Shown piece by piece: positions 4,360 to 43,260 of a DNA stretch of 64,000 nt (position 1 is its first letter; each line of letters begins with the position of its first letter). The notes under the pieces are model-generated. The model was given only the letters and a program-made list of their open reading frames with translations, ran no database searches and was not told where the DNA came from. Source of the stretch: Gemmatimonadota bacterium (GTDB lineage: Bacteria > Gemmatimonadota > Gemmatimonadetes > Gemmatimonadales > Gemmatimonadaceae); the NCBI GenBank assembly GCA_021299375.1, contig JAJTGR010000036.1:1-64000 (forward strand). Direction: 5' to 3'. The translations under genes and the position numbers were made by a program.

Positions 4360-5304
4360 ATGACTCGATCGCTTGGCAAGATGCTGGCTGTCCACATGGT
4401 GTTGGCCGCCACCACGCTGGTCCCCCTGAGGCCCACGGGAGCGCAGCCGCGCGGTGAAGGCCCCCTCGTGCTGCGGCTCCCGGTGAGCGCACGCACGCTG
4501 GCGCTCGGCAATGCGCACCTCGTGTCGAACGACGCGGACGCCCTCTTCGGCAATCCGGCGCTCCTGACCGTGGCACGTGGTCTGTCGGCGTCACTGCAGT
4601 CGTATGGTGCGCCGGCCGCCGGGGGGGCCGTAGCGAACGTGGCCGCGATCGGCGCCCTGTTCGTCGGGGTGGGTATGCAGCACCTGACGTGGCACGCACC
4701 GACCGCGGCCTACGACGACGCGGTGCGCTTCGGTGCGACCACGCTGTCGGATGGCGGGGCGGTGTCCGCGTCGAGCAGTGCCTTCACCGTGGGCCTCGCG
4801 CGCAGCATCAAGGGGCTGCAGCTTGGCGCCAGCGTGAAGTTCGCCGAAGACCGCCTTGGCCCGACTGGGGACGGGACCGTGGCGATCGACGTCGGGGCGG
4901 TGCGGTCGATGGGGCGGACGCTGCTGAGCGTGTCGGCGCAGAACCTCGGCGTGGGCCCGCGTCTCGGTGGCGTGTCGGGCACGTTGCCACGCCGTCTCGG
5001 TGTCGGCATCGGCAGCGTCCCCTTCGCGTTCGCCGAGCACTGGGATGTGGCGGCGCAGGCGCAACTCACGCTCGAGGGGGAGTGGTTCGTCCGGCCCGCC
5101 GGCGGCATGGAAGTGCTGTACGTACCGGTGGATGGCGTGGCCTTCGCTTGCCGCTATGGCGTCCGCCTGCCGCGCGAGCGCGACGAGTCACTCGTCACGG
5201 CAGGGCTGGGTTTCACCGTCGATCGGGTGTCGCTGGACTATGCCCTGGAACCGATGCGCGGGGGACGGCCGCTGTCACACCGGGTGGGGATGCGCATCCG
5301 GTAA
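4360..5304 (+). CDS. PorV/PorQ-like outer-membrane beta-barrel protein
   Basis: A protein of 314 residues with an N-terminal signal sequence ending near GAQP, then the pattern seen in PorV/PorQ-type barrels: LALGNAHLVSNDADALFGNPA, followed by many alternating, glycine-rich beta-strands such as GLQLGASVKFAEDRLG. PorV proteins serve as shuttle or docking barrels of type IX secretion in the FCB superphylum; no other type IX component is visible here, so the role is unproven. The start may instead be the ATG eight codons in (4381), which would give a tighter signal peptide. No clear ribosome site precedes either. It is divergent from the acyltransferase gene with essentially no spacer. Confidence 0.75.
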   Translation: MTRSLGKMLAVHMVLAATTLVPLRPTGAQPRGEGPLVLRLPVSARTLALGNAHLVSNDADALFGNPALLTVARGLSASLQSYGAPAAGGAVANVAAIGALFVGVGMQHLTWHAPTAAYDDAVRFGATTLSDGGAVSASSSAFTVGLARSIKGLQLGASVKFAEDRLGPTGDGTVAIDVGAVRSMGRTLLSVSAQNLGVGPRLGGVSGTLPRRLGVGIGSVPFAFAEHWDVAAQAQLTLEGEWFVRPAGGMEVLYVPVDGVAFACRYGVRLPRERDESLVTAGLGFTVDRVSLDYALEPMRGGRPLSHRVGMRIR

Positions 5305-5313
5305 CGCCCTGCC

Positions 5314-6261
5314 TCATCCGCAGCTGGGGCGGCCGCGTGGCAGCGCGATGGTGCAGTTCTTCGTGGTGCCATTCTCGGTGATGATCACCTTGGCCGTCGC
5401 CGAGCCGTCGTAGGTGATGACTTCCCTTCGGTTGTTGGTGGTGGGCGTGCCACCGTCGATCGTGGTCTGCACCGACATCACACGGACCACGCGGCCCGCG
5501 GTCGGGTAGCTGGGTGACGTGCCCGACGAAACGGGCACCACCAGACCGGTCGTCGTGTCGGTCGACGTGCGCACGGCGGTGAACTTCTGTCCCTCACGGT
5601 TGGTGCCGCTGGCGGTCTCGCTGCCCTTCGCCCAGCCGTTCACCGTGCGCTGGGTGCTGCTGGGCGCGAGGCCGGTCACGGTGCGGTCGCTGCTGTTGTT
5701 CACCGTGGCGGTCACGCTGCCGTCGCGGCTGCGGCTGACGGTGCCAGTGGCGGTGGTGCGGGAGCGCACGGTGTTGGTGGTGAGGGTGTCGATCTTCGTT
5801 TGCGCGGCGCCGGTAACGGACGTAATGGTGTAGATCGTCGTCACCGTGAGCCCGGACCGTGTGGCCGCACAGGTCACGTCGGTGCCGGCGATCGTGCAGC
5901 TGGAGTCGATCCGCGCCGCGAACGCGCCGCGGTGCGGACCGCTGCCCGGCTGGCCGGCGCCGACGAAGTCCGCACCCAGGCCGCCGCCCATCATGCCGCC
6001 CATCCCGGGGCCCCCGCGCATGCCGGGCCCCCCCATACCCATCATCATCCCGCGCCCGAACTCGGGGCCGCCCCACGGGAGCCCTGAGCCGTCGCCGCTG
6101 TAGCTCGAGGCCGTCATCTCCATGCCGGCGGGCAACGTGTTGAAGGCGCTGCCGAACGCCAGGTCGCGCCCACCGGCGCCGTTCATCGCATCGAAGTTGC
6201 ACGCCGTCGCGCCAAGCAGGGTGGTCGTCGCGGCAAGCATGCGGAAGCGGATGTATCGCAT
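5314..6261 (-). CDS. Met/Gly-rich putative lipoprotein, function unknown
   Basis: A protein of about 315 residues that I do not recognise. The start chosen (MRYIRFRML) has GAGG nine bases upstream. A hydrophobic segment leads to LLGATACNF, a possible lipobox, so it is probably an envelope lipoprotein. Around residues 75-105 lies a stretch with repeated GGPGMRGG and GMGGMMGGG units, rich in Met and Gly. The remainder is Thr/Ser-rich and looks like extended beta-structure, with two Cys pairs (SSCTIAGTDVTCAA and NCTIALPRGRPSC) that could form disulphides. It is convergent with the barrel gene, nine bases away. Methionine clusters can bind copper or silver, but nothing nearby supports that role. 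Confidence 0.7.
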   Translation of the reverse strand: MRYIRFRMLAATTTLLGATACNFDAMNGAGGRDLAFGSAFNTLPAGMEMTASSYSGDGSGLPWGGPEFGRGMMMGMGGPGMRGGPGMGGMMGGGLGADFVGAGQPGSGPHRGAFAARIDSSCTIAGTDVTCAATRSGLTVTTIYTITSVTGAAQTKIDTLTTNTVRSRTTATGTVSRSRDGSVTATVNNSSDRTVTGLAPSSTQRTVNGWAKGSETASGTNREGQKFTAVRTSTDTTTGLVVPVSSGTSPSYPTAGRVVRVMSVQTTIDGGTPTTNNRREVITYDGSATAKVIITENGTTKNCTIALPRGRPSCG

Positions 6262-7088: not shown

Positions 7089-8171
7089 ATGCCCCACGAT
7101 CTTCCCTTGCCCTCGCCCGACGCGTCCGACGCCGAATGGGCGGCGTTCGCCCGGTATGTCACGGAGGAAAGTCCGCCGGCCGAGGTGGCGGCGGTCGAGG
7201 CCTGGCTGGCCGCTCGTCCGCTGGACGCCCGGCTGGCGGCGTTCATGAAGGCGCGCGCACGGCGCATCGAAGCCGTGGCGGCTGTGCCGGTGAACACCGA
7301 GTCGGCGCTGGCGGCTGTTCGGCGGCGGATCGCCGACGATGCCGCGCCGTCGCTTCGCGTGATTCCCGGCGGGGCCGTGTCATCGCCGGCGGCCACGACG
7401 GCCGCGCCATGGCGTCGGCCCTGGCGTTTGGTGGGATTCGCGGCCGCGGCAGGTCTGGCGGCCGTGATCGGCCTGTCGCAGTTCGGCCGGTCCGGCGGAT
7501 CGGCCGCGTCGCGCGCGTATCGCACGGCGGTGGGCCAGCGCGACTCGGTGCGCCTGCCCGACGGCAGCACGGTCGTGCTGGCGCCCGGGAGTATCCTGAC
7601 CGTGGCGTCGGGCTTTGGTGAGGTGGCCCGCGACGTCACGCTCGAGGGCGCCGCGTACTTCGACGTCGCCCACGACGAGGGGCGCCCGTTCACGGTGCGC
7701 ACGGCAACCGCCGACATTCGCGACATCGGCACGGCCTTCTCGGTGAAGACGGTCGCCGACGGGGGCGTGGCGGTGGCGGTGACCCATGGCATCGTCGCGT
7801 TGGGCGCACGCGCATCCGCGGCGACGCCCGTCGAACTGCAGGCGGGCGATCGCGGCATCGTGCACGCGGGGGCGGTGGCAGTGACGCGCGGCGTGGTGAC
7901 GAGCGACGACATGGCGTGGACGCAGGGGGCGCTGCGGTATCGCGATGCCTCGCTGGCCGAAGTGCGCGCCGACGTGCGGCGCTGGTATGGCATCGACCTG
8001 CGCGTCCTCGATAGCGCACTGGCGCGTCGCACCATCACCGCATCGTTCGATGGGGCGTCCGTGGCGCAGGTCATCGAGACCCTGGCGCTCACGCTGGGGG
8101 CGTCGGTCGAGCAACGGGGAGATACCGTGCTGTTGCAGTTGCGCGGAGCCGGCGCCGCCACCGTGCGGTGA
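7089..8171 (+). CDS. FecR-family anti-sigma / signal transducer
   Basis: A 360-residue inner-membrane regulator. The N-terminal cytoplasmic part (about residues 1-115) resembles the FecR N-terminal domain. One membrane segment follows (about 118-135, LVGFAAAAGLAAVIGL). The periplasmic FecR domain is recognisable by RTAVGQRDSVRLPDGSTVVL, EGAAYFDVAHD and RPFTVRT. The C-terminal STN-like domain (DASLAEVRADVRRWYGIDLR onward) is usual for this class. The family relays a signal from a TonB receptor to a sigma factor. It overlaps the following receptor region in GTGA and faces the divergent sigma gene, so the three genes make one transport-signalling circuit. Confidence 0.9.
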   Translation: MPHDLPLPSPDASDAEWAAFARYVTEESPPAEVAAVEAWLAARPLDARLAAFMKARARRIEAVAAVPVNTESALAAVRRRIADDAAPSLRVIPGGAVSSPAATTAAPWRRPWRLVGFAAAAGLAAVIGLSQFGRSGGSAASRAYRTAVGQRDSVRLPDGSTVVLAPGSILTVASGFGEVARDVTLEGAAYFDVAHDEGRPFTVRTATADIRDIGTAFSVKTVADGGVAVAVTHGIVALGARASAATPVELQAGDRGIVHAGAVAVTRGVVTSDDMAWTQGALRYRDASLAEVRADVRRWYGIDLRVLDSALARRTITASFDGASVAQVIETLALTLGASVEQRGDTVLLQLRGAGAATVR

Positions 8172-8179
8172 GGCCGGCC

Positions 8180-10795
8180 ATGGGAGCGCACGGACGCGTG
8201 GGGACTGCCGCGCTCGGCACAGTCGTGCGCGGCGCGGCTGTGCGCGTGGCGCTGGTGCTCGCGGCGCTGGTGCTCGCGGGGCGGGCGGCAGGCGCCCAGT
8301 CGTGTGTCGTGCGCGTGACCGCCAGCGACCGGGCATCGCAGTGGGCGCCACCGCTCGACCGGATCGTCTCGCTGCGGCTCCCCGAGATGTCGATCCGCGA
8401 CGCGCTGGACCGGCTGGTGGCCGAGGCGCGCGTGGAACTCTCGTACAGCGCCGAGCTGCTGCCGCTCGAACGCCAGGTGTGTCTGGTGCTCGATCGCGTG
8501 CCGGTGGGGGCCGCCCTCGAGTCGTTGCTGCGGGGGTCGACACTGCGGCCGATCGTGCTGGGGACGATGCACGTCGTGCTCGCGCCGACGGGTGCTCCGG
8601 TGGTATCGGCACCGGTGACGCACGGCATGTCGCGGCGTGCCGGTGTGCTCGACCGCGTGGTGGTGACCGGTTCACCCGACGGGGCGCCGCAGCGCGGGTC
8701 GCCCTTCGCCCTCGACGTCCTCGATGGCGCCACGCTCGCCGAACACGGTGTCAGCACACTCGGGGAGGCGCTCGACCTCTCGGTGCCCGGCGTGTGGACG
8801 TGGAGTGCTGCGGCGGGGGCCGTGACGGGTCGGTATGGCAGCATCCGCGGCGCCAGCTCGTTCGGCGTGAGTGCACCCAAGGTGTACCTCGACGGCATCG
8901 AGGTCGCCAATCCCCTGCTCGTGACCCAGCTCGACCCGGCGCGCATCGCCCGCGTCGAAGTCATTCGTGGGCCGCAGGGCGCGGCGCTCTATGGGGCCGA
9001 TGCCATCAGCGGCGTGGTGAACATCCTGACGCGTTACGACGGTGCGAACGATGCGCGAACCCAGCTGCACGTCAGCGCTGCGGCCGGCGTGACGAACACG
9101 GCGTTCGCCCCGCGTGACCCGCTGGTGCAGGACCATGCTGTGTCGCTGCGCCGAGGGTCGCCGTCGCGCAGTCTCGGGCTGGGGCTCACACTTGGCACGG
9201 TGGGGGCGTTTGTCCCCGGGGCGTCCGAACGCCGAGTGCTGGCCGATGCCAATGGCCGGGTCACACGCGACCACGCCGTCCTGAGTGGAACCGTGCGCCT
9301 GTCGCTGCAGCGGGCAAACGCGACGACGGGCCTGATGCTCGATGGTGGTGGCAACGGCGCTGCGACCGGCTCGCTTCGCCCCCGCCTGCCGGGCGACACT
9401 GCGCGGGGCCTCGCTGGTGGTGACAGTGCGAGCGGGCAGGACGTTGCCCACTACACCGTCGGTGGCACGGTGGCGATGATGCCGTCATTGCGCTGGACGC
9501 ACACCGTCATTGCCGGCGTCGATGGGTACCGTCTGCGCGGGTTGTCGGCGGCGGCGCTGCCGGGGCCCCTTGCCGCCAGTGGTGGTGCGCTGCTCGGCGA
9601 TTCCAACGGCGCCGCCGATCGTGGCAGCATTCGCTTTCGATCGGTCGGGCGTTACGACGTGGCGCCAGCCACGTTGCTTACGCTCACGCTGGGCGCGGAG
9701 CAGGCCATGTCCCGCGAGGTGCTCGATCGGGCGCCCGTCACCGCGCCGCCAGTGACCACTGGTGGGGCGGGCGCCCTCGGACCGTGGACGGTGGGACGCC
9801 TGAGGTCGGTGACGAGTCAGGAGGTGACCACGTACGCCAACAGCGGCCTGCTGGCACAGGGCGTGATGGCCTGGCAGGACCGATGGTACGTCTCGGCTGG
9901 CGCGCGGCTCGAGCGCACCACGGGCGCTACGCCGCTACCCCAGCAGTCGTTCCTGCCCATGTTGGGGGTGGCCCATGTCCGCGACGTCGGCACCGCGGTG
10001 GTCAAGCTGCGCGGAGCCTATGGCGCCGGGATCCGTCCGGCCCGTACGCTGGTGCGCAACACGACGTGGATGGGGGTCGGGACCTGGGCGTCGTCGGCGA
10101 ACCTCGACGCTGAGCGGCAAAGTGGCACCGAGTTCGGCGCCGACCTGCTGCTTGGCTCCCGACTCGCCCTGCACATGACGCGCTTCGATCAGCGGGCCTC
10201 CGGGCTAATCCAGCCAGTGGCGTCCCTCATCACCACGGTGACCACGACCGGTCGCCTCGGGCGCAGCATGGCATACACGCTCCAGAACGTCGGCGCGATC
10301 GCCAATCGCGGCTGGGAGCTCGACGCCAGCACCCGCCTGTCGCGCCTGTCGCTGTCCGGCGCACTGTCGCTGGTGGATAGCCGGGTGGCACAGCTGGCAC
10401 CAGGGTACCGCGGCGACCTGCGCATCGGCGACCGCATGCTCGACGTGCCGTCCAGTACGATGAGCCTGTCGGCCGCCTGGGCCGCCGGCCGATGGACGTT
10501 CACCAGTTCGGCCATCCGGGCGTCTGACTGGGTAGGCTACGACCGGGCGGCCATCGCGGAGGCGGTCGCCGCCGCGGCCGCACCGCGGGAACTCGAAGGC
10601 CCTCAGCTGCGCCGGTATTGGCTGGCGTACGGTGCCGTGACGCGGTGGCGTGCCGGTGTCTCGTACCGAGTACGCGATGGCCTCTCGATGCTGGCCGGCG
10701 GCGATAACCTGCTCAATGTGCAGACCGGGGCCCCGGACAACACGACGGTGATTGTGGGGCGGACCATGACGCTCGGGGTGCGGACGCAGTTCTGA
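8180..10795 (+). CDS. TonB-dependent receptor with N-terminal STN domain
   Basis: An outer-membrane transporter of about 871 residues. After the signal peptide (cleavage near GAQS) comes an STN signalling domain (LRLPEMSIRDALDRLVAEA). A plug domain follows, with a TonB-box-like stretch before GVSTLGEALDLSVPGVWTWS, then the barrel ending in MTLGVRTQF, with the C-terminal phenylalanine typical of barrels. A GTG at 8168 overlaps the FecR stop, but the ATG at 8180 has TGAGG six bases upstream and is preferred. The STN domain and the adjacent FecR and sigma genes mark it as a transducer-type receptor. The ligand is unknown; a siderophore, a polymer or an oligosaccharide are all possible. Confidence 0.9.
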   Translation: MGAHGRVGTAALGTVVRGAAVRVALVLAALVLAGRAAGAQSCVVRVTASDRASQWAPPLDRIVSLRLPEMSIRDALDRLVAEARVELSYSAELLPLERQVCLVLDRVPVGAALESLLRGSTLRPIVLGTMHVVLAPTGAPVVSAPVTHGMSRRAGVLDRVVVTGSPDGAPQRGSPFALDVLDGATLAEHGVSTLGEALDLSVPGVWTWSAAAGAVTGRYGSIRGASSFGVSAPKVYLDGIEVANPLLVTQLDPARIARVEVIRGPQGAALYGADAISGVVNILTRYDGANDARTQLHVSAAAGVTNTAFAPRDPLVQDHAVSLRRGSPSRSLGLGLTLGTVGAFVPGASERRVLADANGRVTRDHAVLSGTVRLSLQRANATTGLMLDGGGNGAATGSLRPRLPGDTARGLAGGDSASGQDVAHYTVGGTVAMMPSLRWTHTVIAGVDGYRLRGLSAAALPGPLAASGGALLGDSNGAADRGSIRFRSVGRYDVAPATLLTLTLGAEQAMSREVLDRAPVTAPPVTTGGAGALGPWTVGRLRSVTSQEVTTYANSGLLAQGVMAWQDRWYVSAGARLERTTGATPLPQQSFLPMLGVAHVRDVGTAVVKLRGAYGAGIRPARTLVRNTTWMGVGTWASSANLDAERQSGTEFGADLLLGSRLALHMTRFDQRASGLIQPVASLITTVTTTGRLGRSMAYTLQNVGAIANRGWELDASTRLSRLSLSGALSLVDSRVAQLAPGYRGDLRIGDRMLDVPSSTMSLSAAWAAGRWTFTSSAIRASDWVGYDRAAIAEAVAAAAAPRELEGPQLRRYWLAYGAVTRWRAGVSYRVRDGLSMLAGGDNLLNVQTGAPDNTTVIVGRTMTLGVRTQF

Positions 10796-33562: not shown

Positions 33563-36500
33563 TCAGCGATAGTTGTGCCCCTGGATGTGCTGCTCGCCGC
33601 CGCCGAGTTCGAGCGCCTTGAACTGTTTGGCCCGCACGTTCACCACCTGACCTTCCACCTGCAGCGTGCCGCGGATGAGCAGCAGCGGCGAGGTGGAGAT
33701 GAGCAGCGCGTGCTGGTCGAAGCGGTCGGGGGTGATGACGATGTTGATCATCCCGGTTTCATCCTCGAGGGTGAGGAACACGAACCCCTTGGCGGTGCCG
33801 GGGCGCTGCCGGCAGATCACCAGGCCGGCCACGGCGACCGGCTGACCATCCTTGCCCCGCTCGTGGGCTTCCTGCGCGGTGAACACGCCGTTGAGCGCGA
33901 GGTGCGGGCGTACATGTCGCATGGGGTGACCGGCGAGCGAGAGGCCGGTCATGCGGTAGTCGGCTTCGGTAAGCTCCACAGGCGTCGCGGCGGGGATCTG
34001 CGGCGCGGGGGCCGGTGGGGTGCGCGGGGCGAGTGGCAGTTCGGGGCCGCGCGTGGCGGCCATCACTTCCCAGAGCGCCACCCGCCGCCGGCGAGCGGGG
34101 GGCTCATGCGCGAACAGGGTGTCGAATGCCCCCGCTTCGGCGAGGCGGCGCCAGGCGGCCTTGTCGAGTGCCACACGCTGCACGGCATTCTCGACGCTCG
34201 TGAACGGGCCGTCGCGCAGCGCCGCCTCGAGCGCGCGGCGAGCCTTCGCGCCGAGGCCACGTACGAGACGCACACCAAGACGCACGGCGAGGGGTCGGGA
34301 GGCCGGCGGATCATCGGCGGCGGCTGGCGCGGCGGGCCGGCCCCACCGCACGGTGCCGTCGTTGGGTACCAGCGTCCGGCCGTCGGGCAGCTCGAGGCTG
34401 TGGTCCCACATACTCTCCGTGAGATCGATGGGGCGCACCGTCACGCCGTGCCGCCTGGCGTCCTCGATGAGCGTACTCGGCGAGTAGAAGCCCATGGGCT
34501 GCGCGTTGAGCATGGCGCACAAGTATTCGGGCGCGTAGTAGTGCCGCAGCCAAGCGGTGGCATATACGATCAGCGCGAAGCTCGCGGCGTGGCTCTCGGG
34601 AAAGCCGTAGTCGGCGAAGGCGTTGATCTGGTTGTAGATGCGGCGGCCGGTCTCTTCGGGGATGCCGTTGCGCGCCATGCCGGCGATGAGCTCCTCGCAG
34701 ATGGCGGCCATGCGTTCGCGCGAGCGCTTGTGCCCCATGGCGCGGCGCAGCACGTCGGCCTGACCGGGGGTGAAGCCGGCGGCCGCGATCGCCACCTGCA
34801 TCCCCTGCTCCTGAAAGAGCGGTACGCCCAGCGTACGCCGCAGCACGTGCTCCAGCGATGGATGCGGATAGGTGATGGGCTCGAGCCCAGCGCGGCGGCG
34901 CAGGTACGGATGCACCATCTCGCCCTGAATGGGACCCGGCCGGATGAGCGCGACTTCGACGACGAGATCGTAGAAGCAGCGCGGCCTGAGGCGTGGCAGG
35001 GTGTTCATCTGCGCGCGGCTTTCGATCTGGAAGAGCCCCACGGTGTCGGCGCGGCAGATCACGTCGTACACGGCCTGATCGCTCATGTCGAGTTGGCCAA
35101 GATCCACGGTCACGCCGCGCGTATGCCGGATATACAGCAGGCAGTCCTGCACCACGGTGAGCATGCCGAGGCCGAGCAGATCGATCTTCACGAGACCGAC
35201 GGGATCGAGATCATCCTTCTCCCACTGGATGACGGTGCGCCCCGGCATGGAGGCGGGCTCGATGGGCACCACCGAGCCGAGTGGCTCCTCGGTGAGGATG
35301 AAGCCACCCACGTGGATGGAGCGATGGCGCGGCAGCTGATGCAGCCCGTTCACCACGTGCGCGAGCTGCCGCACGCGCGGGTCGTCGGGATCGAGGCCGG
35401 CGCGCTGCAGGAGTTCGCGCCCGCTGCTGGAGTCGCGCGTGGCGGTGCTGCGATTGCGCTCTTCGACGAACTCGCGGGGCGTCTCCTTTGGCTCGTCGAG
35501 GGGGAGGCGGGAAGAGGGGTCGACCTTCTGGCGCACGATGGGGCGCGCGCGACCGCCGGGGCGCACGCCGTCGGCGCCCTTGGCGAGAGGGCCCAGCTGG
35601 GCACGCTCGTCGCTGGCGAGCTTCTGTTCGGCGCGCAGGTCCATGAGTTGCTGCCAGGTGGCATCGCGGAGGATGGCCGGCTCGATGGGCGGTGCGGGAA
35701 CCGCACGCACGGAGGGCACGGAGGATGGTGAGGGCGCGGAGGGGCGCGTGGCAGATGCGGCAACTTTGCGTGATGCCTCACGGACGACGCGGGCTTTTGT
35801 GGTCGCCTCGGTGCCGCCACGCATCTGTTGGCCCAGGCGTGCCGCGTCGCCATGCGCAGACGCCTCATTCACGCGTTGACCGTTCTCCGTACCCTCACTG
35901 TCCTCCGTGCCCTCCGTGTGCGCTGTGTCCGCCGTACTCTCGGCCGCATCGACCCGCAGCGCCGCCGCCGTACTCTTCGCACTGAACCGGTCACTCAGCG
36001 CGGCCAGGGCCTCCGCCTGCTTCGTGCTGAAGCCCAGTACGCGCGCCGCGTCCCGCACGGCGCTGCGGCCACGCCAGCTGATCTGCTCGCACACCATGGC
36101 GGCGTGCTCGCGGCCGTAGCGGTTGTACACGTACTGCAACACGCGCTCACGATCGCGGTGCGCGAAGTCGATGTCGATGTCGGGCGCCTCCTGTCGCTCC
36201 TCGCTCAGGAAGCGCTCGAAGAGCAGCTCCATGCGGATGGGATCGACCGCGGTGATGCCGAGGCAGAAGCAGACGGCAGAGTTGGCGGCCGAGCCGCGTC
36301 CCTGACACAGAATGCCTTCGCGTCGGGCGAACCGTACGATGTCCCATACGATGAGAAAGAACCCGGCCAGGTCGAGCTTGCGGATCATGCCGAGTTCGTG
36401 GGCGAGCTGGCGATCGTGCTTCGGGGTGCGTGTGTTGCCCCACCGCTCGTGCGCCCCCTGCTCGACGAGGCGGGCGAGATACTCGGGTGCGGTGACGCCG

Positions 36501-37354
36501 GGCGGCAACGGAAACGCCGGCATGGTGGGCTTGAGCTGCTGCAGCCGGAACGCGCACCGGTCGGCGATGCGGAGTGTGGCCCGCACGCCCTCCTCGGCCC
36601 CCCGCCAGCGCCGGTAGATGAGCCGCGGGGCCTTGAGCGCCCACTCCGCGTTGGGTCTGAGGCGCGTACCCATGGTGTCGAGCGTGCGTTCGTGGCGCAG
36701 CGTGGTGAGCACGTCATGCACGAGGCGCACTTCGGGGGTGGCATAGTGCACGTTGTTGGTGACGACCCACGGCACACCGAGTCGTGCCGCCAGCGGCTGC
36801 AGCTGCTTCACCAGCACGCGTTCTTCCGGCAGCCGATGGTCCCAGCACTCGATGGCCAGGTGCTCACCGAACACGTCGCGCAGTTCGGTGGCCGCGGTCC
36901 ATGCCTCGTCAGGCTTGCCCTCGGCCAACAGCTGGGGCACCCAGCCACGGGGGCAGCCGGTGAGCGCCGTGACCCCCTGCACATGGCGCGTGACGAGCGC
37001 CCAAGGCACGCTGGGGTGGCCGCGTACGCTGTCCAGGCGGGCCCGGGTGACCAAGGTGGAAATGTTGCGGTACCCCTCGCGCGTCTCGGCGAGCAGGACG
37101 AGGTGTGTGCGGCGCTCGCCCCCGCGATTGCCCAGCTCGGGCATGCGGACCGTAAGCTCGACGCCGAGAATCCCCCCCACGCCAACGGCTTCGCAGGCCG
37201 TGCCGAAGCGCACGACCCCACCCATCTCGTCGTGGTCGGTGAGCGCCAGGGCCGGGTAGCCCAGGGCTGCCGCCTGCTCGGCGAGCGCTTCGGGGAGCGA
37301 GGCGCCGTCGAGCAGGGAGAGGGCGGAGTGGCAGTGGAGTTCGGCGTACGACAT
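33563..37354 (-). CDS. dnaE2: Error-prone DNA polymerase DnaE2 (ImuC)
   Basis: A C-family polymerase of 1263 residues. It has an N-terminal PHP domain (AELHCHSALSLLDGAS), the palm aspartates in PDIDIDFAHRDRERV (about 391), the fingers, the HhH region with VRLVRGLGAKAR, and a C-terminal OB fold ending QHIQGHNYR. DnaE2 performs lesion bypass with ImuA and ImuB after DNA damage. Relatives are about 1050-1090 residues; this one carries an extra 190 or so (about 460-650) that is charged and low in complexity. Part of that insertion is an inverted-repeat element (35706-35922). A TTCGG-N6-TTCGG operator lies 8-23 bases before the ATG. The frame continues upstream to 37852, but that is antisense to the divergent PYP gene. 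Confidence 0.95.
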   Translation of the reverse strand: MSYAELHCHSALSLLDGASLPEALAEQAAALGYPALALTDHDEMGGVVRFGTACEAVGVGGILGVELTVRMPELGNRGGERRTHLVLLAETREGYRNISTLVTRARLDSVRGHPSVPWALVTRHVQGVTALTGCPRGWVPQLLAEGKPDEAWTAATELRDVFGEHLAIECWDHRLPEERVLVKQLQPLAARLGVPWVVTNNVHYATPEVRLVHDVLTTLRHERTLDTMGTRLRPNAEWALKAPRLIYRRWRGAEEGVRATLRIADRCAFRLQQLKPTMPAFPLPPGVTAPEYLARLVEQGAHERWGNTRTPKHDRQLAHELGMIRKLDLAGFFLIVWDIVRFARREGILCQGRGSAANSAVCFCLGITAVDPIRMELLFERFLSEERQEAPDIDIDFAHRDRERVLQYVYNRYGREHAAMVCEQISWRGRSAVRDAARVLGFSTKQAEALAALSDRFSAKSTAAALRVDAAESTADTAHTEGTEDSEGTENGQRVNEASAHGDAARLGQQMRGGTEATTKARVVREASRKVAASATRPSAPSPSSVPSVRAVPAPPIEPAILRDATWQQLMDLRAEQKLASDERAQLGPLAKGADGVRPGGRARPIVRQKVDPSSRLPLDEPKETPREFVEERNRSTATRDSSSGRELLQRAGLDPDDPRVRQLAHVVNGLHQLPRHRSIHVGGFILTEEPLGSVVPIEPASMPGRTVIQWEKDDLDPVGLVKIDLLGLGMLTVVQDCLLYIRHTRGVTVDLGQLDMSDQAVYDVICRADTVGLFQIESRAQMNTLPRLRPRCFYDLVVEVALIRPGPIQGEMVHPYLRRRAGLEPITYPHPSLEHVLRRTLGVPLFQEQGMQVAIAAAGFTPGQADVLRRAMGHKRSRERMAAICEELIAGMARNGIPEETGRRIYNQINAFADYGFPESHAASFALIVYATAWLRHYYAPEYLCAMLNAQPMGFYSPSTLIEDARRHGVTVRPIDLTESMWDHSLELPDGRTLVPNDGTVRWGRPAAPAAADDPPASRPLAVRLGVRLVRGLGAKARRALEAALRDGPFTSVENAVQRVALDKAAWRRLAEAGAFDTLFAHEPPARRRRVALWEVMAATRGPELPLAPRTPPAPAPQIPAATPVELTEADYRMTGLSLAGHPMRHVRPHLALNGVFTAQEAHERGKDGQPVAVAGLVICRQRPGTAKGFVFLTLEDETGMINIVITPDRFDQHALLISTSPLLLIRGTLQVEGQVVNVRAKQFKALELGGGEQHIQGHNYR
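35706..35922. repeat. Inverted-repeat element inside dnaE2 coding sequence
   Basis: The arm at 35706-35741 and the reverse complement of 35885-35922 share GGAGGGCACGGAGGA, then after two mismatches GTGAGGG, and after two more CGGAG (27 of about 32 aligned core bases). The arms are 143 bp apart. The whole 217-bp unit is translated within the extra region of DnaE2 (about residues 478-550). Short repeats rich in CTCCGTG are dispersed in some environmental bacterial genomes, so this may be a miniature mobile element. No clear target-site duplication is seen. Confidence 0.8.
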
Positions 37355-37474: not shown

Positions 37475-37903
37475 ATGCTCAACCCGTACACGCAACAGAT
37501 CGACGAGGCCCTGCAGGCCGCCGATCGCATGACCGCCGACGAACTGGATCGCTTGCCGTATGGCATGATCCAGCTCGATGCCACCGGGCGGATTCTCAAC
37601 TACAACGCGCTGGAGTCGAAGCTCGCGTCGCTGCGCAAGGAGGACGCGATCGGCAAGCAGTTCTTCACCGAGATCGCGCCGTGCACGCGGGTGCAGGAGT
37701 TCTACGGGCGCTTCAAGGAAGGGGTGATCCGGGAGTCGCTCGACACCAGCTTCCATTTCCATTTTGCGTTCAAGCAGCATCCCCGGGACGTCACGGTGCG
37801 GCTGCTCTACTCCAGGCGCACGCGCACGGTGTGGGTGCTGATCTCCGACCACGAGGGGAAGCCCCTGGCGGGGCAGGACACCGGGGACGCCCCGACGGGC
37901 TGA
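37475..37903 (+). CDS. pyp: Photoactive yellow protein homologue (PAS fold)
   Basis: A 142-residue PAS protein that aligns with Halorhodospira PYP without gaps through the core, offset by one residue. The chromophore cysteine is Cys70 in IAPCTRVQEFYG. The phenolate-binding Tyr43 and Glu47 are present in NYNALES. The block FYGRFKEGV is almost identical to the classical protein. Thr50 and Arg52 of the classical protein are replaced by Ala and Leu, which should shift colour or kinetics. The C-terminus extends about 15 residues (GKPLAGQDTGDAPTG). PYP binds p-coumarate and senses blue light; no tyrosine ammonia-lyase is in this window. The gene is divergent from dnaE2 across 120 bp and ends six bases from the convergent exchanger fusion. 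Confidence 0.87.
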   Translation: MLNPYTQQIDEALQAADRMTADELDRLPYGMIQLDATGRILNYNALESKLASLRKEDAIGKQFFTEIAPCTRVQEFYGRFKEGVIRESLDTSFHFHFAFKQHPRDVTVRLLYSRRTRTVWVLISDHEGKPLAGQDTGDAPTG

Positions 37904-37909
37904 CCGGCG

Positions 37910-40171
37910 TCAGCGCCGCACGATCGCCAGCGAGTCGGCGCTGCCGTCGTTCGGCGCCGGCACGACGCCGAGCAGCCGCGCCAGCAGCGGGTACACATGC
38001 ACGTTGGCGACGGGCCGCAGCACGCGCCCCTCGTCGATGTCGGGGCCGGCGGCGATGAACAGCGCGCCCATGCTCGGGAGTGCGTTGTCGTAGCCATGGG
38101 TGCCACCGCGTGGCGCGGGCAACCGTTTCGCGCGCTCCCGGCTGGTGATGGTCCATCCTTCACCGGCGAGCAGCACCAGCGGCGTGATGCGCACGTGGTC
38201 CCGATAGTGAAAACGCGCGGGCACACTGTCGCGATGAAACACCTGCAACTGCGGATGGGCATGGCGCAGGGCGTCGTACACGGCGGCGAGCTTGCCCGGC
38301 TTGGGCGTGACGGCGCTCACTGGCATCCAGTCCACCACCTCCACGTCGGTGAGATCGATGTAGTCGTCGAGATAGATGCGACGCTCGGCGCTGACGTCGG
38401 TCATGCCGTGGTCGGAGACGATCACCAGATTGACACGGTCGCCGAGCCCGCGCGCCGCGAGCCCATCGACGAGTGCCCCCACCAGCGAGTCGACATGGGT
38501 GATCGCGGTGTCGACCTGCGCTGACGGCGGCCCGTATGCATGGCCGGCATCGTCGGTGGTGCTGAAGTAGAGTGCCACGAACCGCGGCGCCTGTGCCGGC
38601 GGCATCGCGAGCCAGTCGAGCACCTGTGTGACGCGCGCCGCGTTCGGCATCCGGCCGTCGTAGGGCAGGTAGTAGGTGGGCCGGCGGCCCCCGATCGCGT
38701 AGTCGCCGCCAGGCCAGAACAGCGACGCGGCGCGCACACCCTGCTTCTCGGCGGTCACCCAGATGGGCTCGCCGCCCCACCAGCGCGGATCGCGCGCCAC
38801 CAGCGTGTCGCCGATGGTGAAGGTCGCGGCGATGTTCGGGTCGCGCATCGTATTGGCCACGATGCCGTGGTGCTCGGGGTACAGCCCGGTGACAAGCGTG
38901 TGGTGATTGGGAAAGGTCTTGCTCGGAAAACTGGGCACCAGCCGCTCGGCACGCGCCCCGCGCTCGGCGAGGGCGCGCAGGCGCACCGCTCCGGGACGGT
39001 CGAGATAGTCGGCGCGGAAGCCGTCGAGAGACACGAGCAGCGTCGCATTGGCCAGGGCTTGCGCGGACGCCGGCGCGATACCCGACACACCACCGGCGGC
39101 GTCACGTGCAAGGCGGGGCGTGGCTGCCCCGGCCGTCGACCGCCAGAACACCAGCCCGATCCCCAGCACGTACCCCATCACAAGCAGCAGGCTGCCCGGT
39201 TCGACGGCCCGCTCCACACGCTTGGAGCGCAGGGCGAGGGTGCCGATCGCCACGGCCATGAGGATCACGGCCACCATGGCGGTGAGCACGTGTGCGGGGT
39301 CGGCCACGCTGAGCACCGGCGCTGCCGGATGCGCGAGATCGAGGCCGGCGAAGATGATCATGTTGAGCGCATTGCTGCCGAATAGATTGCCGACGGCGAG
39401 ATCGTAGGCACGCAGCCGAACGGCGGCCAGCGAGGTGACCAGTTCGGGCAGGGACGTGGAGAGCCCCACGAGCCATGTCCCGACGAAGGTGGAGCCGACA
39501 CCGGTGAGGGTGGCAATGCCTTCGGCGGCGTGCGCGAATTGCGGCGCCGCCATCACGATCACGGCGGCGGCGGCGAGAAAGGTGAGCCCGGCGCGCTGCA
39601 GCGTGGGCGTGTTGCCGTCGGCATGCGTGGCACTCGGGACGGCCGCCCCACCGGGCGCGGAGGACATCTCGATCGTCACGCCGGCCTCCTGCGCCACCCG
39701 GCTGTGCCGAAAGGCCGCCCGCGACGCGACGGCGTACACCACCAGGATCACGAGCGACCCGGCACCCATCCCCGCCACCGACGCCGTCGAGCGGATGAGG
39801 ATGGTACCGGCGGCCATCATCGTGAGGATGATGGCGAGGCACGCATACAGCACGTGGTCGAGCGTGGTGCGGCGGAACACGTCGGCCCCGCCCGGCACGA
39901 GACTGACCAGGCTGAGGATGAGCATGTTGGCCATGCTGCTGCCGAAGAGGTCGCCCACGGCGAGGTCGATGGCGCCCAGGCGAACGGCGGCGAGGTCGGT
40001 GACGATCTCCGGCAGCGACGTGGCGAGCGCGAGAAACACCGAGCCTACCCAGACACCGCCCAGGCGCGTGCGGGCGGCAATCACGTCACCACTGCGCGCC
40101 AGGACGGTCCCGGCCACGATGACCACCACGGCCGCGACGACGAAGCGCAGGCCGAGGGTGGCGAGGGTCAC
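37910..40171 (-). CDS. Fusion: CaCA-type cation exchanger + NPP-like phosphodiesterase
   Basis: One frame of 753 residues joins two families. Residues about 1-345 are a membrane exchanger of the calcium/cation antiporter type, with two alpha-repeats: LATSLPEIVTDLAAVRLG...GDLFGSSMAN, and LSTSLPELVTSLAAVRLR...GNLFGSNALN. Residues about 370-753 are a nucleotide pyrophosphatase/phosphodiesterase: metal Asp in SLDGFRADYLD, nucleophile Thr in FPSKTFPNHHTLVTG, then TTDDAGHAYGP, IVSDHGMTDV and GTHGYDN. Its start is a GTG overlapping the UspA stop (GTGA). The phosphodiesterase should lie outside the membrane, tethered to the exchanger. It is the third gene of a run with a calcium ATPase and UspA. Confidence 0.88.
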   Translation of the reverse strand: MTLATLGLRFVVAAVVVIVAGTVLARSGDVIAARTRLGGVWVGSVFLALATSLPEIVTDLAAVRLGAIDLAVGDLFGSSMANMLILSLVSLVPGGADVFRRTTLDHVLYACLAIILTMMAAGTILIRSTASVAGMGAGSLVILVVYAVASRAAFRHSRVAQEAGVTIEMSSAPGGAAVPSATHADGNTPTLQRAGLTFLAAAAVIVMAAPQFAHAAEGIATLTGVGSTFVGTWLVGLSTSLPELVTSLAAVRLRAYDLAVGNLFGSNALNMIIFAGLDLAHPAAPVLSVADPAHVLTAMVAVILMAVAIGTLALRSKRVERAVEPGSLLLVMGYVLGIGLVFWRSTAGAATPRLARDAAGGVSGIAPASAQALANATLLVSLDGFRADYLDRPGAVRLRALAERGARAERLVPSFPSKTFPNHHTLVTGLYPEHHGIVANTMRDPNIAATFTIGDTLVARDPRWWGGEPIWVTAEKQGVRAASLFWPGGDYAIGGRRPTYYLPYDGRMPNAARVTQVLDWLAMPPAQAPRFVALYFSTTDDAGHAYGPPSAQVDTAITHVDSLVGALVDGLAARGLGDRVNLVIVSDHGMTDVSAERRIYLDDYIDLTDVEVVDWMPVSAVTPKPGKLAAVYDALRHAHPQLQVFHRDSVPARFHYRDHVRITPLVLLAGEGWTITSRERAKRLPAPRGGTHGYDNALPSMGALFIAAGPDIDEGRVLRPVANVHVYPLLARLLGVVPAPNDGSADSLAIVRR

Positions 40172-40530
40172 GCGCCGATCTCGCCGGCTTGGCGGTACAG
40201 CAGCACCGGATGATCGGCGGTGCGCACCACCTTGTCGGCCACGCTCCCCAGGAGGACACGACCCAGCGGACCGCGTGCCGCGGTCGCCATGGCGAGGAGA
40301 TCCGCGCGAGACGAGACGGCGGATTCGTTGATGGCGCGCGTCGGTACGAAGTGCGGCGGCGCACAGTGGGTGGCATCGGCACCCGTGGCCCACACCTCAG
40401 CGACGATACGCGTGAGGTACCGGGTCATGAGGTCCAGCGACGTGCCGATCAGGCGCGCCAGGTCCAGCGCCAGAGGAAGCGCCACGTCGGCATACTCGGA
40501 ACCATCAACGGTGACGATTGTCGGCGGCAT
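40168..40530 (-). CDS. Universal stress protein (UspA family), short form
   Basis: A 120-residue protein. The N-terminus IVTVDGSEYADVALPLALDL and the C-terminal GRVLLGSVADKVVRTADHPVLLYR match UspA, including the nucleotide-binding G-x(9)-G(S/T)-type loop near GSVADKVV. The usual length is about 140-150, and the middle appears shortened by about 25 residues. It starts within the end of the ATPase gene (26-bp overlap), and its stop overlaps the start of the exchanger fusion, so all three are tightly coupled. UspA proteins bind ATP or ADP and modulate stress tolerance; a regulatory role for the calcium transporters is an inference. Confidence 0.82.
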   Translation of the reverse strand: MPPTIVTVDGSEYADVALPLALDLARLIGTSLDLMTRYLTRIVAEVWATGADATHCAPPHFVPTRAINESAVSSRADLLAMATAARGPLGRVLLGSVADKVVRTADHPVLLYRQAGEIGA

Positions 40531-43189
40531 ACCATCCTCGACGACGGATCAGGAGTTTCTCGCATTCGACGGCAACATACACGAGCACGGCGACCCCGAA
40601 GCAGAGCGCGAGTTCCGGCCCCGTCAGCGGCACCGTGCGGAAGATCGGCGTCATGGCCGGTACGTACAGCGTCAGCATCTGCAGGCCAATGGTGCCGACG
40701 ACGGCCAGCAGCAGCAAGGGATTGCTGAACACGCCGATCCGCCAGAGCGGCAGACGTTCCGACCGGATGGCCAGGACGTGCGCCAGCTGCGACAGCGTGA
40801 GCACCGTGAATGTCATGGTCTGCCAGTGCGCGTTGCCGGTGCGGATGGCCCAGGCCTGCGTGCCCAGGGCGAGTCCGGCCATGAGCAGCCCCACCCACAC
40901 CGCATGCTGCCACAGGCCGTGCGCGAAGATCCCTTCCTCCGGTGGCCGCGGGGGACGCTGCATCGCATCCGCCTCACCTCGCTCCGCCGACAGCGCCAGC
41001 CCCGGCAGCCCGTCGGTGACGAGGTTCATCCACAGGATGTGAATGGGCAGCAGCGGGAGTGGCAGCCCGAGAAAGGGGGCCAGGAACAGCGTCCAGATCT
41101 CGCCGGAGTTGGTGGACAGCACGAATCGGACGAAGCGCCGGATATTGTCGTAAATGCGGCGCCCTTCGCGCACGGCCGAGACGATGGTGGCGAAGTTGTC
41201 GTCGAGCAGCACCATGTGCGACGCTTCCCGCGCCACGTCGGTGCCGCCGCGGCCCATGGCCACGCCGATGTTCGCGCGCCTGAGGGCCGGCGCGTCGTTC
41301 ACCCCGTCGCCGGTCATCGCCGCGTACTCCCCACGCGCCTGCAGCGCCGACACGATGCGCAGCTTGTCCTCCGGTGCCACCCGCGCATACACGCGCACGG
41401 TGCCGACGCGCGCCGCCATGGCGTCGTCGTCCAGCTGCGCCAGATCGCGGCCGGTGAGCACCTCGTCGCCGGATGCGGCGATGCCCAGCCGTTCGGCGAT
41501 CGCTCGGGCGGTGGCGGGATGGTCGCCGGTGATCATCACCACCCGAATGCCCGCTCCCTGACACGTCCGCACCGCCTCGCCCGCCTCGGCGCGGGGCGGA
41601 TCGAGCAGGCCCACCAGGGCGACGAGCGTGAGGGCGCGTTCCTCGTCCTCCACGCGCTCGGGAATCGTGTCGAGGCGCCGCACGGCGATGGCGAGGACGC
41701 GCAGCCCGTTGGCGGCCATGGTTTCCGCTTCGTGCAGCAGCCCCTCCCGGTCGATCGGCACCACGCCATCCAGCCGCCGCATCTCCGTGCAGCGGGGGAT
41801 GACGCGCTCCGGCGCGCCCTTGGTGCACGCCAGCACCACGTCGTCCTGGGCGTGTACGGTGGTCATGCGCGCGCGCTCGGCGGTGAAGGGTGCCTCAGCC
41901 ACACGTGGCCACTGCCGATCGCACTGCCGCTTGTCCACGCCGGCCTCGCCGGCGGCTCGCACGAGGGCCGTCTCCGTGGGGTCACCGACCAGCCCATCAG
42001 CCTCGGCGTACTGCACATCGGTGCAGAGGGCGAGCGCCTCGGCCACCGTGACGGGGATCGCCGCATCCCGCCCGAGCGGTTCGAGCAGCGATACGTCACC
42101 GTCCACGTGCCGCACCGTGTCGACCCGCATGCGGTTCTCCGTGAGCGTGCCGGTCTTGTCGGTGCAGATGTACGTCACCGACCCCAGCGTCTCGACGGCG
42201 GACAGACGGCGAATGAGCGCCTGCTGTCGCACCATGCGGCGGGCGCCAAGTGCCAGCGCCACCGTGATGACCGCCGGCAGCGCTTCCGGAATGGCGGCTA
42301 CGGCGAGGCTGAGCGCGGTCATGAACATCAGCCCGACCTCTTCGCCACGCCCGAGTCCGGCCACGAAGATCACGACGCACAGCGCGAGGACCAACACGGC
42401 CAGGCGCCGGCCGAAGGCGGCGAGGCGGAGTTGCAGCGGCGAGCGCACGTCGGGGGCGTCGCGCAACATCGCCGCGATCCGTCCCAGTTCGGTACGCATG
42501 CCGGTCGCGATGACCACGCCCAGCCCGCGCCCGCCGCTGACGACGGTGCCCTTGAAGGCCATGCCGCGCTGGTCGCCGAGCGGGAGATCGGCGGACGGCG
42601 CAGCGGCCACGGCCTTCTCCACCGGTTGCGACTCGCCGGTGAGCGCGGCCTCCTCGACGCCAAGGCGCGCCACCTCGACGAGGCGAAGGTCGGCAGGAAC
42701 GATGTTGCCGGCTTCGAGCAGCACGAGGTCGCCCGGCACGAGATCGGCCGACGGGATGGTCTGCTCGCAGCCGTCACGACGCACGCGGGCCGCCGGTGCG
42801 GCGAGCGCCCCGAGCGCGGCCATGGCCTGTTCCGCGCGGTACTCCTGCACGAACCCGAGCAGCGCATTGAGGACGACGATGGCGACAATGGCTGCCACAT
42901 CTTCCGGCTCACCCAGTGCGCCGGCGATGATCGCGGCCGCGAGCAGCACAAGGACGGTGACGTCCGCGAACTGGGCCAGCAGGATGCGCCAGGGACGGCG
43001 GCGGGCGGCGGCCTGCAGCACGTTGGCGCCGTATTCGGCCCGTCGCGACTCGACAGCCGTTGTGGACAGTCCCTGGTCGCGCGACACATCGAGCGCGGCC
43101 AGCGCCTGATCAGGCGTCAGCGTTGACCAGAGCGCCGTGGGGGGCGGGTCTGAACCGATGGACGGCGTCGAGAAGGCAGCGGGCGGCAT
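40505..43189 (-). CDS. P2A-type calcium-transporting ATPase
   Basis: A P-type ATPase of about 894 residues. The phosphorylation site is DKTGTLT (about 344), the hinge TGDGVNDAPAL (about 626) and the actuator loop TGESQPVEKA. The calcium-site residues known from SERCA are preserved: PEALP in TM4, NSGEIW in TM5 and NLVTDGLP in TM6. So it should pump Ca2+ out of the cell using ATP, although Mn2+ pumps share these motifs. The ATG at 43189 (MPPAAFSTPS) is the most likely start; an earlier frame upstream is weakly supported. It is first in a three-gene unit with UspA and the exchanger fusion. Confidence 0.93.
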   Translation of the reverse strand: MPPAAFSTPSIGSDPPPTALWSTLTPDQALAALDVSRDQGLSTTAVESRRAEYGANVLQAAARRRPWRILLAQFADVTVLVLLAAAIIAGALGEPEDVAAIVAIVVLNALLGFVQEYRAEQAMAALGALAAPAARVRRDGCEQTIPSADLVPGDLVLLEAGNIVPADLRLVEVARLGVEEAALTGESQPVEKAVAAAPSADLPLGDQRGMAFKGTVVSGGRGLGVVIATGMRTELGRIAAMLRDAPDVRSPLQLRLAAFGRRLAVLVLALCVVIFVAGLGRGEEVGLMFMTALSLAVAAIPEALPAVITVALALGARRMVRQQALIRRLSAVETLGSVTYICTDKTGTLTENRMRVDTVRHVDGDVSLLEPLGRDAAIPVTVAEALALCTDVQYAEADGLVGDPTETALVRAAGEAGVDKRQCDRQWPRVAEAPFTAERARMTTVHAQDDVVLACTKGAPERVIPRCTEMRRLDGVVPIDREGLLHEAETMAANGLRVLAIAVRRLDTIPERVEDEERALTLVALVGLLDPPRAEAGEAVRTCQGAGIRVVMITGDHPATARAIAERLGIAASGDEVLTGRDLAQLDDDAMAARVGTVRVYARVAPEDKLRIVSALQARGEYAAMTGDGVNDAPALRRANIGVAMGRGGTDVAREASHMVLLDDNFATIVSAVREGRRIYDNIRRFVRFVLSTNSGEIWTLFLAPFLGLPLPLLPIHILWMNLVTDGLPGLALSAERGEADAMQRPPRPPEEGIFAHGLWQHAVWVGLLMAGLALGTQAWAIRTGNAHWQTMTFTVLTLSQLAHVLAIRSERLPLWRIGVFSNPLLLLAVVGTIGLQMLTLYVPAMTPIFRTVPLTGPELALCFGVAVLVYVAVECEKLLIRRRGWYAADNRHR

Positions 43190-43260
43190 CGCAGGACCGT
43201 GACGAGGGCACCATGGCGACGAACCGCCCGTCGAGCGGCGCGCCATGCCACGCCTGCAAC

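Follow-up and report, generated by a model that had tools for sequence, protein, structure and literature searches.

How do a cation exchanger and an NPP-type phosphodiesterase come to be encoded by one gene, and what would the joint product do? The window—the whole stretch of 64,000 nucleotides that was analysed—raises this question by a reading frame that carries both. It derives from a 92-kb contig (G000:C62) within a 4.5-Mb draft genome, whose closest named relatives are Gemmatimonas. We consider it probable that a deletion fused two neighbouring genes, that helix 10 of the exchanger exports and anchors the NPP, and that both halves keep their ancestral jobs. The features are listed in Table 1.

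Table 1. Features of the fused gene and of its operon, in positions of the window
Feature	Positions	Strand	Length, boundaries or basis
Fused CDS	37910..40171	(-)	753 aa + stop; GTG start 40171, TGA 37910-37912
Exchanger half, residues 1-345	39137..40171	(-)	Pfam PF01699 in two stretches; phmmer/hmmsearch to NCX_Mj; hydropathy, loop charge
TM10, residues 325-343	39143..39199	(-)	Exchangers of relatives end a few residues beyond
Linker, residues 346-374 (~29 residues)	39050..39136	(-)	Low model confidence; apparent deletion site relative to the unfused pair
NPP half, residues 375-753	37913..39049	(-)	Pfam, Xac NPP alignment, 30 homologues, model
Universal stress protein (USP), 120 aa, same operon	40168..40530	(-)	Shortened by internal deletion
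P-type Ca2+-type ATPase (IIA-like), first gene of the operon	40505..43246	(-)	

The fused frame consists of 753 codons (37913–40171 on the minus strand) with zero internal stops, and translation of this strand upholds the original prediction of one 753-residue frame with neither a stop nor a shift at the junction. The GC3 amounts to 0.90 and 0.88 in the two halves versus 0.70 in the linker. A frame so long, matched at full length by two families, does not arise by chance. The GTG at 40171 corresponds to the start position of the exchangers of relatives and overlaps the stop of the USP gene (GTGA). The frame can be read further upstream, to a GTG at 40393; this start was rejected because the frame would then cross the USP gene.

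The exchanger half belongs to the YrbG/NCX_Mj branch of the CaCA superfamily, with which it shares the TSLPE and GS..N motifs; the ten TM helices in two inverted repeats that mark this branch are predicted for it as well. Pfam Na_Ca_ex (PF01699) matches the fused protein in two stretches with 105.1 bits against a cut-off of 24.9, and the exchanger half by itself reaches 108.2 bits. The motifs of the α-repeats are TSLPE at residues 51–55 and 239–243, GSSMAN at 77–82, and GSNALN at 265–270. The NCBIfam model for the calcium/sodium antiporter (TIGR00367) scores 81.0 bits and, hence, below its curated cut-off of 179.65, so that the half is not assigned to this equivalog. The nearest solved structure is that of the archaeal NCX_Mj: 10 of its 12 ion ligands are identical in the exchanger half by a residue-by-residue reading of the alignments. 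T51, S52, E55, S78, and N82 of the first repeat and T239, S240, E243, and S266 of the second match these ligands, whereas A206 and D240 of NCX_Mj are replaced by Gly236 and Asn270. The roles and numbering of the ligands follow PMC8366772, according to which eukaryotic NCXs likewise carry Asn at the position of D240 (D240N). A further difference from this branch is the enzyme that the exchanger bears at its C terminus.

The NPP half features a complete catalytic domain. Pfam Phosphodiest (PF01663) spans residues 377–695 and covers profile positions 1–342 of 342 with 323.4 bits against a cut-off of 23. The active-site set D383, T419 (the nucleophile), N440, D540, H544, D587, H588, and H692 aligns to the NPP of Xanthomonas axonopodis (Xac NPP; PDB 2GSN), a member of the alkaline phosphatase superfamily, and is nearly invariant among 30 NPP homologues. 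The two proteins are alike over the whole catalytic domain, with 42% identity and agreement in every active-site residue. In the AlphaFold model, the NPP half is mostly resolved with a pLDDT above 90 and superimposes on Xac NPP with a Z of 55.8 and 1.7 Å over 380 residues. The catalytic residues of NPPs comprise the nucleophile, a phosphate-binding Asn, and six metal ligands (PMC6052110). With the Pfam matches and the alignments, the proposed pair of two CaCA α-repeats and a complete NPP domain with its Thr nucleophile and metal ligands stands, and both domains of the fused protein look intact as judged by their sequences.

Hydropathy yields ten hydrophobic segments in the exchanger half. The loops carry alternating charges: the sums of Lys and Arg are 3, 2, 4, 2, and 4 on the presumed inside and 0, 1, 1, 0, and 0 on the outside, which predicts that both the N terminus and the C terminus of the exchanger lie outside. 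NCX proteins have an intracellular loop between helices 5 and 6, and members of the YrbG family have ten helices (PMC3679957); the predicted topology matches both. Since the C terminus of the exchanger is predicted outside, the NPP half should lie in the periplasm, where signal peptides send the NPPs of relatives. The proposal that the exchanger anchors the phosphodiesterase outside the membrane is thus in line with the ten predicted helices and the loop charges. AlphaFold renders the exchanger half as some ten helices, but with a poor pLDDT (about 60 within the fusion model and 47.7 alone), because only four sequences were available to it. The fold search was run with the whole fusion model, and its matches are NPP chains only—uninformative on the exchanger.

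The product would be an inner-membrane cation exchanger of the YrbG type, probably a Na+/Ca2+ exchanger, with the C terminus outside. Helix 10 would carry the NPP across the membrane and hold it in the periplasm via a flexible linker of ~30 residues, and we infer that this tethered form is the one that the cell uses. Most NPPs of the genus are lipoproteins with a signal peptide; in the fused NPP, the last helix of the exchanger would replace this lost signal. Mammalian ENPP1–3 share the catalytic domain, and ENPP1/3 are membrane-anchored ectoenzymes as well. Their anchor is a single N-terminal helix. In contrast, the fused protein lacks the somatomedin-B and nuclease-like domains of ENPP1–3, and its anchor would be a ten-helix transporter. 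It is possible, if unlikely, that the fusion exists in the gene and not in the mature protein: signal peptidase would cut past TM10 and free a soluble periplasmic NPP, the fusion lending solely an export signal. A-x-A motifs do follow TM10, namely AGA at 347–349 (cut as AGA/A within 347–350) and ASA and AQA near 368–372, the linker has low confidence in the model, and the ancestral NPP was already a secreted lipoprotein. However, an Ala-rich linker yields such motifs by chance, and TM10 serves the exchanger as an ordinary internal helix. The fused gene offers a natural experiment on whether a C-out transporter's final helix can substitute for a signal peptide.

The origin of the fusion can be read from the relatives, in which the exchanger and the NPP are separate genes. 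In G039 (L117) and G338 (L119), the gene order is the same as in the window: Ca2+ ATPase, USP, exchanger, and NPP, followed by the convergent PYP gene and dnaE2. G055 (L118) keeps this order and the neighbours PYP and dnaE2, but an insert of 1.1 kb precedes the NPP. The exchangers of G039, G338, and G055 stop directly past TM10 (FWHTQ, FWHTR, and YWRSVTPT, each followed by the stop), and their NPPs start with a signal peptide and a lipobox Cys (LTAGC, LSAAC, and VLCGC, respectively). In G039 and G338, the NPP lies in a frame other than that of the exchanger. From the equivalent of residue 345 to the start of the NPP, L117 and L119 each have 152 nt, and the frames do not match; the window has 87 nt, and they do. 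At the junction of the window, a signal peptide with a lipobox Cys is found in none of the three frames, and the stop of the exchanger is gone too. A frameshift that conceals a signal peptide was rejected, as the other two frames are without a hydrophobic stretch. It appears that about 65 nt were lost on balance—a size derived from relatives at about 65–77% protein identity—which put the exchanger and the NPP in one frame. This deletion would have fused two adjacent genes of the operon and erased the stop of the exchanger together with the signal peptide that made the NPP a lipoprotein.

An artefact of assembly or sequencing is conceivable, given a draft assembly of 116 contigs and a single occurrence, and we regard it as highly improbable. 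A one-base error does not suffice, because none of the three frames contains the signal peptide. In addition, the flanking synteny matches the relatives on both sides, and the gene is internal to its 92-kb contig.

The fusion is rare. A second fused frame was found in none of the samples from the genus (30 genomes), the family (179), the phylum (395), and Acidobacteriota (347); these samples overlap, and the larger searches scored the best 2–6 candidates per genome, among which any fused copy would come out on top. Nor does one occur among the 80 best loci of a GTDB 220 scan, and a literature search for an exchanger–NPP fusion gave no relevant paper. The original prediction had held that a fusion unique to this contig would refute it. 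It is unique across all samples searched, yet this does not make it unreal, because relatives have the unfused genes side by side. It is a lineage-specific in-frame fusion of clear origin, with ordinary parts and a domain pair that is new among the data searched. Its interest lies in an origin that is legible from relatives: by a deletion, it appears, a lipoprotein became the C-terminal domain of a transporter.

The locus has a clear tendency to deletions. The USP comprises 313 aa with two USP domains in relatives, as opposed to the 120 aa in the window, with ~190 aa lost internally. Across the genus, genes have been gained and lost at this locus: the NPP directly follows the ATPase in G366, G351, and G079, without exchanger or USP, and G268 has the exchanger without the NPP. 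Since each occurs without the other, the exchanger–NPP pair is not an obligate unit. The fused gene may be short-lived, near-neutral or decaying, a by-product of this locus whose fused state has no selected role; we find this rather unlikely. The second deletion in the USP, the PstS–PstB remnant joined in frame at the locus of G055, the gene turnover across the genus, and the occurrence of the fusion in no other genome searched are all consistent with it. On the other side, every catalytic residue is retained, and the terminal branches of both halves are 0.19 each. As these lengths are ordinary, neither half has the look of a gene in decay, and no accelerated evolution that would point to decay was seen in either.

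The most probable function of the tethered protein is that of its parts. The exchanger would export Ca2+ alongside the Ca2+ ATPase, and the NPP would split phosphodiester or pyrophosphate bonds of periplasmic nucleotides, each as its unfused counterpart would do. A more ambitious reading, which we think doubtful, is that the exchanger has become the selected carrier of an ectonucleotidase in a stable bifunctional protein, with helix 10 as export signal and anchor. If so, phosphodiesterase activity would be held where Ca2+ leaves the cell.

A coupling of Ca2+ export to nucleotide cleavage, for example, via local Ca2+ or phosphate, is very unlikely. It would fit the order of Ca2+ ATPase, USP, exchanger, and NPP that is retained in several relatives and the presence of both sets of catalytic residues in one protein. 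Against it stand the separability of exchanger and NPP in the four genomes named above, the single fused copy, and the metal chemistry of the enzyme. NPPs work with a di-zinc centre, and in ENPP1–3 Ca2+ is bound in the nuclease-like domain (PMC6052110). This Ca2+-binding domain is absent from the fused protein by Pfam, and the suggested regulation of the NPP by Ca2+ is, hence, not borne out. The suggested release of phosphate or nucleoside also needs revision. The direct products of NPPs are nucleoside monophosphates.

Several features of the surroundings are of note in their own right. The USP of the window combines the beginning of domain 1 with the latter half of domain 2. A scan for promoters and terminators showed no promoter-like site and one terminator-like match at chance level. 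In L118, an in-frame junction links the N-terminal part of PstS to a truncated PstB (4610–5518, plus strand) between the exchanger and the NPP, a remnant of a collapsed pst operon. In L121, from another relative, genes for a PstS-like protein and a probable PstC (7685–9362) adjoin the Ca2+ ATPase–NPP pair, which weakly suggests that the NPP may work in the context of phosphate acquisition. Beyond the fused gene, the window encodes a PAS protein similar to photoactive yellow protein (PYP; 37475–37903, plus strand), which reaches 106.6 bits to TIGR02373, below the curated cut-off of 143.05, and has the chromophore-site motifs YNALE and APCT. In most of the loci viewed from the genus, this gene separates the NPP locus from dnaE2. 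The error-prone DNA polymerase DnaE2 of the window (33563–37336, minus strand) carries an insertion of some 200 aa that lies between residues ~450 and ~650 and is partly of low complexity (HTEGTEDSEGTENG).
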